Positions 15,981-19,773 of a stretch of 35,801 bases of DNA are shown here, in pieces. Position numbers and translations under genes: made by a program. The first letter of the stretch is position 1, and each line of letters starts with the position of its first letter. The DNA is from Moorena bouillonii PNG. GTDB lineage: Bacteria; Cyanobacteriota; Cyanobacteriia; Cyanobacteriales; Coleofasciculaceae. The notes below the pieces were generated by a model, which was not told the origin of the DNA, searched no databases, and saw only the letters and a program-made list of their open reading frames with translations. The stretch is taken from positions 312,533 to 348,333 of the forward strand of contig NZ_MKZS01000001.1 of NCBI RefSeq assembly GCF_001942495.1. The letters are read 5' to 3'.

Positions 15981-16199
15981 TTCTTTTTTGATTCTCCTAC
16001 TTCTGGCAGACTGTAGTCAATTAACTATTTTTTTAGCACTACTAGGTTTTCTACCTGAAAGTTGAGGTGTAAAACCTAATAGTTGAGGTCAAAAAGTTTT
16101 TTAGTGAAGGCTACAATCCATCACTGTTAAACTTTTATCAGTATAAACGACTTGTTCGAGTTTAAGAGCACTTGCTGCAAATAAGTCCTCAGCTAACCT
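15981..16199. other. Short spacer without recognised gene
   Basis: Between the exported protein gene and the 3' fragment of the EamA gene. An open stretch of about 32 codons continues past the EamA stop on the minus strand (RLAEDLFAASALKLEQVVYT and beyond), but it has no start of its own and I recognise nothing in it. Confidence 0.35.
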
Positions 16200-16748
16200 T
16201 CAACCTTTTTTCAAATTAGATCCATAAACCGCTACTGCCACCCCAACTAACAATACCACGGCACCTACCAGCACCAATACCCCTGGCACTTCCTGAAAAA
16301 CCAGATAGCCCAAAAAACAAGCACCAACGGGTTCAAACAAAATAGCCAGGGTCACCAGGGTAGGATTAATCCAGCGTACCAACCAGTTAAAACTGGTATG
16401 TCCCACCATTTGGGGGAAAAGTGCCAATAACAAGATGTAGACGTAAACTCCTACCGGATAATTGAGATAACTGACACCCCAGAGTAAGGATAACAGTAAC
16501 AACACTAACGCCCCCATACTGTAGGCGACAGCACTATAGCTACCGATACTCAAACCCCGTTGCTGTGCTTCACGTCCCCAAAGTACATACAAACTTGCTA
16601 TCACTGCTGCCATCAATGCTAGAGAATTCCCCAACAGAGGATTACTGCCACCACTGAGAGAACCCCCATCCCCCAAAGTAATCAAGACAGCACCTACAAA
16701 GGCCACACCAATTCCCAAAACCGTCAGCCTAGTTAGTTTTTCCGATAC
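16200..16748 (-). pseudogene. EamA/DMT family transporter, 3' fragment
   Basis: This is the C-terminal half of a drug/metabolite transporter superfamily permease, cut off from its start by the IS607-type element. Reading resumes as VSEKLTRLTVLGIGVAFVGA, the end of the first EamA repeat. It is followed by the second repeat with about five hydrophobic helices (ALMAAVIASLYVLWG, MGALVLLLLSLLWG, YILLLALFPQMVG, FEPVGACFLGYLVF and LVLVGAVVLLVGVAVAVYG). The last part of the first repeat and the whole second repeat are intact, so the disruption looks recent. The 5' fragment is at 18736-19114. Confidence 0.88.
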
Positions 16749-16781
16749 TTTTTAGCTACCAAAATCTACAAAACGCAGATC

Positions 16782-17874
16782 TTAGTCCACTAATGCAAGC
16801 TGCTCTCGCAGCCAGGGGGTATCTCCCAATGCTCGTAGAAATATTCCACGAGCGCCGTTGATGTCTCTATCCATAGATCGACCATCAACTTTAGATTTGA
16901 TAATTTTGCTTCCGCCAATGTTCACCATTTCACCCGTCCAGCTGACAGTCTTGCTGGTATAAGCTTGCGCTTTCATCCACCACCGTTTTACCTGTCTCTC
17001 TAGCTTTATGCTTTAGGAATTCTTTAAAACGATAATGTGCAAAGCTAAGCATATTGCGAACAGTTTTAGATCTGATCTTCCTATTTCCTTTTTTCGACAT
17101 TTGAGATGTCTCAAAAGTAGGAAGTAATATCACATCAAAATTGTCTACAAAGAACCTGGCAGCTTTGTGGTGTAGATCACTTATCAGGTTTTGAATCCTG
17201 ATAACCATCCGGCGAGCCGCCTTCCTCATTCGGCGTTTCCGGCCACGTTTCGCTTTACTTATCTTGGAGAGTAGAGCGTCTAAGTGTTGGCATAGCCTTT
17301 GAATTTGAGAAAAGTCTCCATTCCCAATTTTCCCAATAGAAGTTTCGCTAAAAAAGGTGACAAAGGTTCTTACTCCAGGATCTAAAGCAACTACTCGCCC
17401 TTGGCTATCGGTTTGCTCTTTCGTTGCTTCATGAGGAACTACCAAGTAATAGTCCCCATTATGGCTGGTCAATCTACAGTCGCCAATATTATTTGGGAGA
17501 GGTTCGGCATAGGATACTTCCCCTAATTTGGTGTGGTAGATCCCTTTGTTCGATACTGCTGATTTTGGAATATAGCAAGACTGTTTGGGATTTTTACGAG
17601 ACCTAAATCTAACCCGATTAATCTGAGCAGTCTTCTTGTACTTCTTTTTAGCCTCCCGAACTGCGGTGCAAGCATCCTTTATCGCTATCGATTTAATTTG
17701 ATAAGGTACTGACTTGCACCACTCAGGGAGGTCGTTTAAGATATCGGTCTTGATCGCTTTCCAGTTAGCTTTAACTTCGCCACTTTGAAGGATCTTGACG
17801 GTCTTGTTGAAAACATAACGGGATACCCCAAACCATTTGCGAGCAAGCGTACGCTGTTCAGGGTTTAGGAACAC
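16782..17874 (-). pseudogene. tnpB: TnpB (RuvC-like RNA-guided nuclease of IS605/IS607), frameshifted
   Basis: TnpB proteins are RuvC nucleases guided by an RNA from the element's 3' end. The main frame (17874-16930) shows an N-terminal domain (KWFGVSRYVFNKTVKIL), RuvC-I VALDPGVRTFVTFF with the first Asp, an arginine-rich bridge-like segment, and RuvC-II ILLPTFETSQMSKK with Glu. The frame breaks after GKTVVDE near 16961-16972 and continues in another frame as AYTSKTVSWTGEMVNIGGS. RuvC-III follows as MDRDINGARGIFLRALGD, to a stop at 16782. The usual zinc-knuckle cysteines are absent (TSKTVSWTGE). The only start before FLNPEQR is GTG at 17874. Conserved-looking residues (VRKSKKIR) precede it, so the true N-terminus may have been lost to the adjacent cloverleaf. 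Confidence 0.85.
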
Positions 17875-17947
17875 TCTGATCTTCTTTGATTTTCTTACCG
17901 TACTTTCTGAGTCCGTGGACTCGGCAAGAAAAGACGTGAATGATTTT

Positions 17948-18235
17948 GAAGTTACCGTAAGAATAAAGAAGCCTTTATAGGCGACAGGCTATGGGTAAAA
18001 AGGTTAAAACTCATGAAATAAGGCTTCTTTATTCTAAGGTTTCGTCTCCGGAGAGAAGATCTGCGGTAAGTTCGGATTCGGGGCAACTTTCAGGTTGGTC
18101 GGATCCCATGATTTTTCCACCGTTGAGACTGACCGGAGATGAAACCTTAGAGTAGTGCAGCCTTACTACAAAACCTTTACCCTATGCTGCATAATTTACC
18201 AACTATAAAGGCTGCACTACTCTTACGGTAACTTC
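17948..18235. repeat. 288-bp nested inverted repeats forming a potential four-way cloverleaf
   Basis: A perfect 15-bp outer pair, GAAGTTACCGTAAGA (17948-17962) and TCTTACGGTAACTTC (18221-18235), encloses three consecutive hairpin arms with essentially no spacers. Arm 1 pairs 17960-17975 with 18020-18035 (16 bp). Arm 2 pairs 18034-18051 with 18133-18150 (18 bp, one G-T). Arm 3 pairs 18149-18164 with 18208-18223 (16 bp). The single mismatch becomes a G-U wobble if the plus strand is transcribed. It sits between tnpA and tnpB and overlaps the end of the tnpA frame. It may be a structured RNA, a cruciform DNA site or a miniature inverted-repeat insertion. Confidence 0.85.
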
Positions 18236-18668
18236 TAACCAAGTACTCAATGAGTTCAAACCCGAATCGGGTGAGTCTGTCTCTACAGGTAACAATAATT
18301 GTGAGCTTATCTCCGCGCACAATTCGTTCCAATATGGCTCTAAGCCCTTTCCTTTTGTAGTTGAGTCCGGAACCGATGTCTTTGATGATTTCCGCTTGAG
18401 GGAAGAGTGAGTGGAGGTAGGCAACTTGCCTGGCGAGGTCGTCTTTTTGCTTGTGGGTACTGACTCTGCAATACCCAATACTGAATTCACGAACTCGATC
18501 CACGTTTCCTTTGAAACTACCAAATCGGAGCAAGCTCTCCGTGTCAAAGAGTCTGGTTCCACCGGGAGTTTTTTCGCATCTGATTGTGCCATTGTCCGCA
18601 TACTTCCTTAAAGTGTTCCCAGATAATCCCGTAAGTTCGACCGCCTTACGTAGAGGAACTAGTACCAT
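18177..18668 (-). pseudogene. tnpA: IS607-family serine recombinase TnpA, C-terminally altered
   Basis: TnpA of IS607 elements is a small serine recombinase that moves the element through a circular intermediate. Visible are the MerR-like helix-turn-helix (LRKAVELTGLSGNTLRKYAD, about residues 5-24) with the wing PGGTRLF, the catalytic serine in IGYCRVSTHKQKDDLARQV, and the arginine motif TCRDRLTRFGFELIEYLV. After ELIEYLV the frame runs into the outer arm of the cloverleaf (RSYRKSSAAF) and stops at 18177. The roughly 40-50 residues normally following (the long helix of the catalytic domain) are missing. The start is ATG 18668 (MVLVPLRK); an ATG at 18686 is also in frame. Probably inactive. Confidence 0.85.
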
Positions 18669-18735
18669 AATTATAATCTCACACATCTTTGGAAATAGTG
18701 CAAGATTTTTGTAGAAATTCGCTAACAGTAGCTAA

Positions 18736-19114
18736 CCTTCAACCAGAGCCAAGAAACTAGAGCAACCCAAATCGGAGTTGTGGTAACTAAGGTAGTAGAT
18801 GCCGCAATGGAGGTAAAAGATAAGGAAGTAATCCAAGCCACAAAGTGTAGCGCTAAACAAACACCAGCCCCACTGCCATAGACTAATGCACCTGGACCTA
18901 GCTGAGCTTGCCTGAGATTGCGCCAAGCTGGTAACAGTAGCATAGACGCAATAGTAAGGCGAGACCCAGCCACGAACAGGCTAAACCCTACCCCACTCAC
19001 CCCAGCGGATGCGATCGCTAATCGCACAAAAATAGCTGATGTGGAAATCGCCAACACACCAGCCAAGAAAACCAATCCCACCTGCCACCGCAGCGGCTGC
19101 TTTATAATTTTCAT
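18736..19114 (-). pseudogene. EamA/DMT family transporter, 5' fragment
   Basis: This is the N-terminal part of the permease interrupted by the IS607-type element. The coding frame starts at ATG 19114 and shows hydrophobic helices such as VGLVFLAGVLAISTSAIFV, FSLFVAGSRLTIASMLLLP, and LVTTTPIWVALVSWLWLK, the end of the first EamA repeat. It then enters element sequence and stops after VSYC. Joined to 16200-16748 it gives a normal transporter of about 300 residues. Substrate unknown. Confidence 0.88.
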
Positions 19115-19249
19115 AGCGATACAGCTTCAATCCCTAACCATTACCATTATTCCGGCAGAGGTACCAGCACAGAAGTGAATAACTCTAGATAGTCTAACTT
19201 TATCTAGAATCTACTTAATCGTTGATAAGTCCTAATTTATAATTAAAAT

Positions 19250-19627
19250 ATGTTTGAACTACCGCCACTCAATACTAATACAATTTGGGCAATTTTAAAC
19301 GAAAAAATTGATGACGATACCGTTAATAAACTACTCTGGTACTATCTAGGTTATCGTTATAACTCAACTACGCAACAGTGGGATATAACTGAGGTTAATC
19401 CTGAATGGCAAGAAGACTATCCCGAACCACCCAATTTCATAGAAAGCCGCCCTGCTACCGTAAAACTAACCCGTTCAATACCCAAAGAAAATAAACAGTT
19501 ATTGAAAGAAAAATTAGGTTTCAAAGGTTATAAAATCGGTGAATTTGGTCCTCGACAAACTCGCCGAGCTACAGCCGCAAACTGGTTACTGAATTATATG
19601 GAACAAAACGGCATTGCCTCAGTATAG
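19250..19627 (+). CDS. DUF1823 family protein
   Basis: This 125-residue soluble protein, seen in cyanobacteria and plastid-bearing lineages, has no known function. It has the family pattern: LPPLNTNTIWAILNEKIDD near the start, the WDITEVNPEWQEDYPEPP segment, and the strongly conserved C-terminal half with RPATVKLTRSIPKENKQLL and GFKGYKIGEFGPRQTRRATA. It starts with ATG at 19250 and is transcribed alone, facing the long minus-strand cluster across a heptamer array. Confidence 0.85.
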   Translation: MFELPPLNTNTIWAILNEKIDDDTVNKLLWYYLGYRYNSTTQQWDITEVNPEWQEDYPEPPNFIESRPATVKLTRSIPKENKQLLKEKLGFKGYKIGEFGPRQTRRATAANWLLNYMEQNGIASV

Positions 19628-19660
19628 CGTTTTTCATACCTATGAGGTACACAGGATTTT

Positions 19661-19714
19661 TTCCCGATTCCCGATTCCCGATTCCCGATTCCCGATTCCC
19701 GATTCCCGATTCCC
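19661..19714. repeat. Tandem heptamer ATTCCCG, about seven copies
   Basis: Perfect tandem copies of ATTCCCG (GGGAATC on the other strand) lie between the convergent DUF1823 gene and the large minus-strand gene. This is another STRR-type block. Confidence 0.9.
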
Positions 19715-19773
19715 TGTTCCCTAAAATCCAGAAATTGTTTACCTCATAGCTATGATAATTGCTATAAAACACT

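Follow-up and report, generated by a model that had tools for sequence, protein, structure and literature searches.

Two inverted insertions of a short Moorena hairpin repeat, probably shaped by template switching, in the tnpA/tnpB overlap of an IS607-family element

The stretch of DNA that was analysed (the window) comprises 35,801 nucleotides of the genome of Moorena bouillonii PNG and carries on its minus strand a 1992-bp element of the IS607 family at 16744–18735, bordered by the dinucleotide GG (CC on the plus strand) at 16742–16743 and 18736–18737. In silico removal of this carrier element, with one GG kept, restored one continuous reading frame in the flanking gene that the element interrupts, a gene which we take to encode an EamA-type transporter. 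The TnpA part of the carrier matched the model NF033518 (transpos_IS607) at 118.6 bits (cut-off 110), and the TnpB part matched NF040570 (guided_TnpB) at 103 bits (cut-off 100). The open frame of tnpB (16930–17874, minus strand) encodes 314 amino acids, the last of which depart from those of its relatives, suggesting that its end has probably been altered by a frameshift. The tnpA gene (18177–18686, minus strand) is truncated, encoding 169 amino acids of which approximately 150 are native and approximately 19 are contributed, together with the stop codon, by the second of two insertions described below (insert 2), while TnpA proteins free of this insertion are about 196–202 residues long and end in ...LVSLNGGKILVLD...SVPKP (L033, L152). 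As TnpA is cut by insert 2, the carrier probably no longer produces a functional TnpA protein. Elsewhere in the window, a short tandem repeat of CCCGATT (19660–19715) lies between a small open frame and a minus-strand open frame of 1015 aa.

The junction of tnpA and tnpB is occupied by a block (17948–18235) for which a preliminary description, made from the sequence alone, had proposed a four-way fold, and a base-by-base check found its four stems to be present at the positions given. The outer stem (17948–17962/18221–18235, 15 bp), arm 1 (17960–17975/18020–18035, 16 bp) and arm 3 (18149–18164/18208–18223, 16 bp) are perfect, whereas the middle stem (18034–18051/18133–18150, 18 bp) contains one G-T pair. 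The arms had been described as following one another end to end; they do adjoin, but neighbouring stems overlap by 2–3 bp, so that this holds only approximately. The predicted RNA fold of the block reached −122.1 kcal/mol, compared to −70.4 ± 5.3 kcal/mol for 200 shuffled sequences, none of which folded as low (z = −9.8), and the folding of the block is beyond chance. The unconstrained RNA optimum at this energy is a long rod, and the cloverleaf, when forced, is found at −120.8 kcal/mol, 1.3 kcal/mol above the rod, while under DNA parameters the cloverleaf is the optimal fold. When the native piece between the two halves of the middle stem was folded alone (18051–18133, 83 nt), no excess structure was observed (z = +0.4), and the pairing of the stems therefore comes from two copies of a repeat. 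Pairing between the ends of these two inverted copies gives rise to the outer and middle stems, and arm 1 is the internal hairpin of insert 1 and arm 3 that of insert 2.

The block consists of two insertions, in opposite orientation, of one non-coding hairpin repeat of about 102 bp into the tnpA/tnpB overlap of the IS607 element. Insert 1 (17945–18049, minus strand) added 105 bp and has the arms AGAATAAAGAAGCCTT, and insert 2 (18135–18240, plus strand) added 106 bp, has the arms AGAGTAGTGCAGCCTT and is bracketed by CC at 18133–18134 and 18239–18240. Between them lies the native tnpA/tnpB overlap (18050–18134, minus strand, about 84 bp), which is outside the repeat. BLASTN searches of the M. 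bouillonii genome matched the whole block to three places, while 17945–18051 and, inverted, 18133–18240 each matched many other places of about 105 bp. At three further IS607 copies of the same genome, which lack either insert, 18050–18134 is joined directly to both outer flanks, and because these empty copies show an uninterrupted junction, two insertions around native sequence are required. The suggestion that the block replaces the end of tnpA and the likely start of tnpB is thus correct insofar as insert 2 truncates TnpA, but the overlap itself is native; likewise, the alternative that a miniature inverted-repeat element had inserted here stands as to the insertion of a repeat, although there were two insertions and not one. 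A single 288-bp element was considered as a candidate and is ruled out by the empty IS607 copies and by those that carry insert 2 only.

Insert 2 without insert 1 occurs in one IS607 copy in each of three other genomes of the genus (G001 C11, G002 C369 and G003 C157), while the full block was seen only in three IS607 copies of the M. bouillonii genome, with insert 1 identical across them (105/105). Since insert 2 is found alone in related copies, the block was built stepwise, and these sequences are most simply read as the arrival of insert 2 before insert 1. The sequence at the empty insert-2 site is TGACC|AAGT in several of the copies and a variant form in others. The four-way layout is, accordingly, a by-product of two inverted insertions.

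The hairpin repeat forms a sizeable family. A strict pattern of its two ends detected 65 copies in the M. bouillonii genome (none with a reversed control pattern) and 55, 41 and 26 in G001, G003 and G002, respectively. Together with fetched matches from these three genomes, a set of 140 distinct copies was assembled, including the best 30 of the 55 matches from G001 and the best 30 of the 41 from G003, and these contain 100 distinct interiors; as the search pattern fixed more than 20 end bases, repeat identity in this set is inflated and degraded copies are excluded from it. The exact pattern was found in 4 of 57 relatives (the M. bouillonii genome included), all of one genus, and when 291 genomes of the order were sampled and searched by BLAST at E 1e-4, the repeat was found in 4 of them, representing 1 of 121 genera (Moorena), with no match in the 287 non-Moorena genomes of this sample. 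A pattern scan of named genomes returned, among the matches listed, 75 stretches, of which 70 were from Moorena; the 5 others are taken for chance, given that by our own estimate about 14 chance matches are expected collection-wide. Among the genomes searched, the family is thus apparently restricted to the genus Moorena, where it occurs in 109 distinct flank contexts across four genomes.

The repeat is short, non-coding and multicopy (65 copies in one genome, 140 gathered), as a MITE would be, and empty counterparts, which provide proof of insertion, are known for three insertion points in IS607 copies. Its outermost ends, GGAGACGAAACC and CGGTAACTTC, are only roughly alike, the perfect arms being subterminal (87 of 100 interiors). 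Copies were also observed to be clustered: on contig C1 of the M. bouillonii genome, six neighbouring pairs lie less than 500 bp apart against 0.25 expected at random (three of the six being the block itself), and 15 pairs lie less than 3 kb apart against 1.5 expected. Additionally, several kinds of tiny palindrome are inserted in one another in this genome, with palindromes of the form AGCGATGCAGCGCGGTCTTGGGG...CATCAAGACA nested in the hairpin-repeat cores of L127, L129, L132 and L142, and palindromes of the form GAGGTGCG...CGCACCT, or its reverse, in those of L128, L131 and L133.

IS607 elements have GG at both termini and use an invariant GG target without further duplication (PMC4058570 and PMC6188088, in the parts consulted), and the sites of the repeat were scored for CC immediately preceding the left end and for CC at a distance of three bases beyond the opposite end. 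CC (GG) was present at both ends in 69 of 109 distinct repeat sites, at one end in 12 (5 + 7) and at neither in 28, against a background of 6% of flanking dinucleotides, and IS607-like ends, in the sense of GG termini and a GG target with no longer duplication, are thus a feature of most sites only. The empty sites at insert 2 and at a third site within tnpB (GGCCTCC|CTGACGG) are consistent with an insertion at CC that leaves CC at both ends, while no CC is present on the outer side of insert 1. Copies without CC at both ends (28 of 109; for instance L238 and L241) show, for example, ...CA before AAGAC and AAA at the other end, and perhaps reflect another mode of insertion or a subfamily whose ends differ.

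On this basis, the repeat would be a MITE-like passenger moved in trans by a serine transposase of the IS607 type. A parent element bearing the ends of the repeat was not found at 15 tnpA loci of the M. bouillonii genome (about 3.4 kb each, with 1.5 kb per side, so that far ends may be missed), and these loci had no clear terminal motif except for nested repeats. Similarly, across 38 stretches of the same genome at stray ends (20 left and 18 right), the interval from a left end to the closest right end contained no open stretch longer than 113 aa; a right end was located within 130 bp for 19 left ends, within 2.7 kb for 21 and not at all for 7, although the motifs applied were loose and some of these are not true ends. 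As the parent search was non-exhaustive and confined to one genome, the link to an IS607-type transposase is one that we infer. An element of about 1.97 kb was encountered in two 99.9% identical copies in this genome (L175, at 464–2430, and L176), with a 438-aa open frame that was named TnpB-like by eye and a hairpin repeat in each of its non-coding flanks, in inverted orientation. It was considered as a parent and rejected, its own ends falling outside the repeats.

The arms of the repeat vary in concert. They are perfectly complementary over the first 13 bp in 87 of the 100 distinct interiors, compared to a mean of 5.3 and a maximum of 12 when the right arms were shuffled, and the perfect-armed interiors comprise 28 arm sequences, with at least two pair types at 12 of the 13 positions. 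Covariation was judged by these arm counts and the shuffle control in place of a covariance model. Non-Watson-Crick cells numbered 26 of 1300 (3 G-T, 1 A-C and 22 others). The core between the arms occurs in both orientations, 64 of the 100 distinct interiors having one and 36 the other (7 of the 140 copies were ambiguous): L227 and L231 share an identical core in opposite orientations, and L224 (G003 C116), a relative of insert 1, has the same arms with the core flipped. Furthermore, two pairs of copies at the same site (L118/L211 and L113/L252) differ by multi-base changes on both arms while the core is nearly unchanged, and hybrids in which a three-base block is altered on one arm only were recovered (L070, L081, L117 and L220).

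Template switching between inverted repeats homogenises their arms and inverts their spacers (PMC8604942), and it creates and maintains stems that resemble compensated RNA (PMC8794818), as described in the sections of these two papers that were available. Replication template switching between the arms of the repeat would likewise keep the arms matched and flip the core, and if arm matching arises in this manner the pairing needs no RNA function. A point against this explanation is that the spacer inversions reported in the available part of PMC8604942 are small (2–5 bp changed), while the core here measures about 44 nt. On a tree of 97 core sequences, which rests on about 48 columns, orientation required 20 changes compared to a shuffled mean of 29.2 (24–36), and arm sequence required 52 changes in 85 rows compared to 68.2 (63–72); orientation and arm type thus partly follow descent, indicating that switching is too slow to erase history. 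As a separate observation, the host sequence just left of the repeat in one site cluster (L037, L066, L083 and L197) alternates between GCGGAG and GGGTCG, much as the arms alternate between GTGGAG and GGGTCG. Taken together, we consider the block to be two inserted repeats of about 102 bp, belonging to a MITE-like passenger that would depend on an IS607-type mobiliser and whose arms and core would have been shaped by template switching, and we assign this reading a probability of roughly 0.88.

The notion of a structured non-coding RNA belonging to the IS607 element, such as a guide-type RNA or a translational switch between tnpA and tnpB, draws on the strong predicted fold of the block, on its position at a gene junction and on the covariation of its arms across copies. 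Yet the arms covary as a property of each repeat and not of the four-way layout, which was seen in three copies of one genome only, and insert 2 is missing from 18 of the 24 distinct IS607 copies placed in a tree (see below), while the repeat itself is spread over the 109 flank contexts of four genomes. The sole Rfam match up to E 1 in 16000–19500 had an E value of 0.51 and 22.9 bits against a cut-off of 90. The preliminary description had taken the G-T in the middle stem as a hint of selection for RNA pairing; however, this G-T joins two different repeat copies. RNA selection would tolerate G-U pairs and the counts reveal no such tolerance, G-T making up 3 of the 26 mismatched cells, and selection for RNA pairing is therefore unsupported; a conserved layout in which the arms covary by way of G-U intermediates was not found. 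The covariation test that had been proposed does give arms changing in matched pairs, but this signal is not specific to RNA, and the search for compensatory changes misleads in this case, since template switching produces an identical positive signal when it homogenises the arms. A function as RNA thus appears extremely improbable. That the block of about 290 bp is mobile as one composite unit is also very unlikely. Its three copies in the M. bouillonii genome are identical over 17931–18250, while the adjoining tnpA and tnpB segments (compared over 17500–17930 and 18240–18680) differ by about 7–39%, as a jointly moving unit might produce. All three copies nevertheless occupy the same IS607 position, with no new sites, insert 2 exists alone in three other genomes, and local gene conversion among IS607 copies explains the identity equally well; an identical block beside diverged neighbours indicates local recombination between IS607 copies.

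The behaviour of insert 2 among IS607 copies was followed using a tree built from flanks and native spacer, with the inserts excluded, from 34 loci (30 and 4 more) representing a subset of the IS607 copies, of which 10 duplicates were dropped to leave 24 distinct copies (6 with insert 2 and 18 without). Insert 2 is identical (102/102) in all six copies, which derive from four genomes, while the spacer adjoining it in the three other genomes differs from that of the window in 8–12 of 84 bases. The six copies are scattered over the tree, requiring six changes, of which at least four are forced by well-supported branches; a single clade of insert-2 copies was rejected (AU p = 1.8e-62), and no clustering was apparent, as 500 of 500 label shuffles needed as few changes. 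In the wider family, 52 of 67 pairs with identical interiors counted as same-site under the threshold applied (several of the 15 remaining pairs share the same host by eye but fall below it). The repeat was more alike than its flanks in 129 of 145 same-site pairs, and the interior was more different than the flanks in the other 16, with flank identities here and for the 67 pairs coming from a lenient alignment that overstates flank similarity; whole interiors thus seem, from these comparisons, to be replaced too at some sites. Within the 52 same-site pairs, the exact flank match extended for no more than 10 nt on the left side in 23 pairs and on the right side in 25; in 12 pairs this was true of both sides. 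An identical interior is also present at clearly different sites (L026–L028 versus L030), which speaks for movement between unrelated sites. Simple insertion and subsequent decay would not predict that repeats at one site are identical while their flanks have diverged. Any of three processes could account for this: precise insertion that occurred repeatedly, homing, or gene conversion limited to the repeat in combination with precise excision elsewhere. It was also observed that, at one host site, the terminal sequence of the repeat is TAACC in some copies and GTTCCC in others, with differing interiors (L012, L233 and L236 versus L016, L036 and L246; also L109 versus L195), as if interiors and ends had been exchanged independently or the site had been used repeatedly.

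These observations bear on three further explanations. If a transposase recognises the DNA hairpin, its perfect arms could be under selection and template switching would be unnecessary, in line with the 87 of 100 perfect arms and with the folding of each repeat as single-stranded DNA, which is better than that of shuffled sequences on both strands (z −3.0 to −5.1). Such selection leaves unexplained, however, both the flipped core and the multi-base changes on both arms at one site (L118/L211 and L113/L252), and the one-arm hybrids are as a correction route expects. As a substitute for template switching it is therefore an unlikely, if reasonable, proposal, although transposition may also select for a DNA hairpin alongside template switching. 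A homing process, in which a cut, perhaps made by a TnpB-type RNA-guided nuclease, leads to copying of the repeat into one and the same site of IS copies that have diverged, would accommodate the identity of insert 2 in the six scattered copies and the 52 of 67 same-site pairs. We regard it as decidedly unlikely, given that the flank matches of many pairs are too short for a long guide and point to little co-conversion, that precise excision and gene conversion could scatter insert 2 too, and that the same interior also occurs at different sites. A broader conjecture, which we consider doubtful, is that the repeat represents a homing-like element of about 102 nt that would combine letter-exact copying at the same site, near-zero co-conversion of flanks, matched rewriting of the stem and flipping of the loop in place, through a DNA-hairpin intermediate and by a mechanism as yet undescribed.

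The reading of the block as two passenger repeats, with arms and core formed by template switching, provides a natural case in which compensatory changes, usually strong proof of an RNA stem, are better explained by DNA copying, and repeats of this type would be misleading positives in covariation screens for structured RNAs in bacterial genomes. With more than 100 copies in one genus, many at comparable sites and including one-arm hybrids and flipped cores, the order and rate of template switching should be measurable. Furthermore, the finding of an identical insert 2 at one site of scattered IS607 copies poses a question, amenable to testing, on the spread of tiny elements.

In comparison with known systems, the repeat shares arm homogenisation and spacer inversion with the template-switched inverted repeats of PMC8604942 and PMC8794818. 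It differs in that a whole bacterial mobile repeat family with a core of about 44 nt is concerned, whereas those papers, in the text consulted, deal with coding loci of yeast in which the inverted spacers are small, and with RNA genes. Its likeness to IS607 lies in the GG (CC) at both ends of 69 of 109 sites and in the GGTTAG with which both the carrier and insert 2 begin; unlike IS607, it has no TnpA or TnpB and has a long internal hairpin, and 28 of 109 sites do not fit. No earlier description of the Moorena repeat was found in the open-licence literature searched, which is weak evidence of novelty. MITEs of 77–541 bp have been reported in Anabaena sp. 90, where "type II" denotes those with no recognised parent IS (PMC3542288). 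As far as the available text of that report describes them, they and the Moorena repeat are alike in being short, non-coding, multicopy and hairpin-forming, in having no recognised parent, and in residing in genes and other mobile elements. By the same text, the Moorena repeat differs from them in that its ends are only roughly matched, its perfect repeats are subterminal and no target duplication beyond CC was seen, and additionally in that its arms vary in matched pairs and its core occurs in both orientations. The family is thus best placed as a MITE-like passenger with IS607-like target use, and as an apparently genus-specific variant of such elements.
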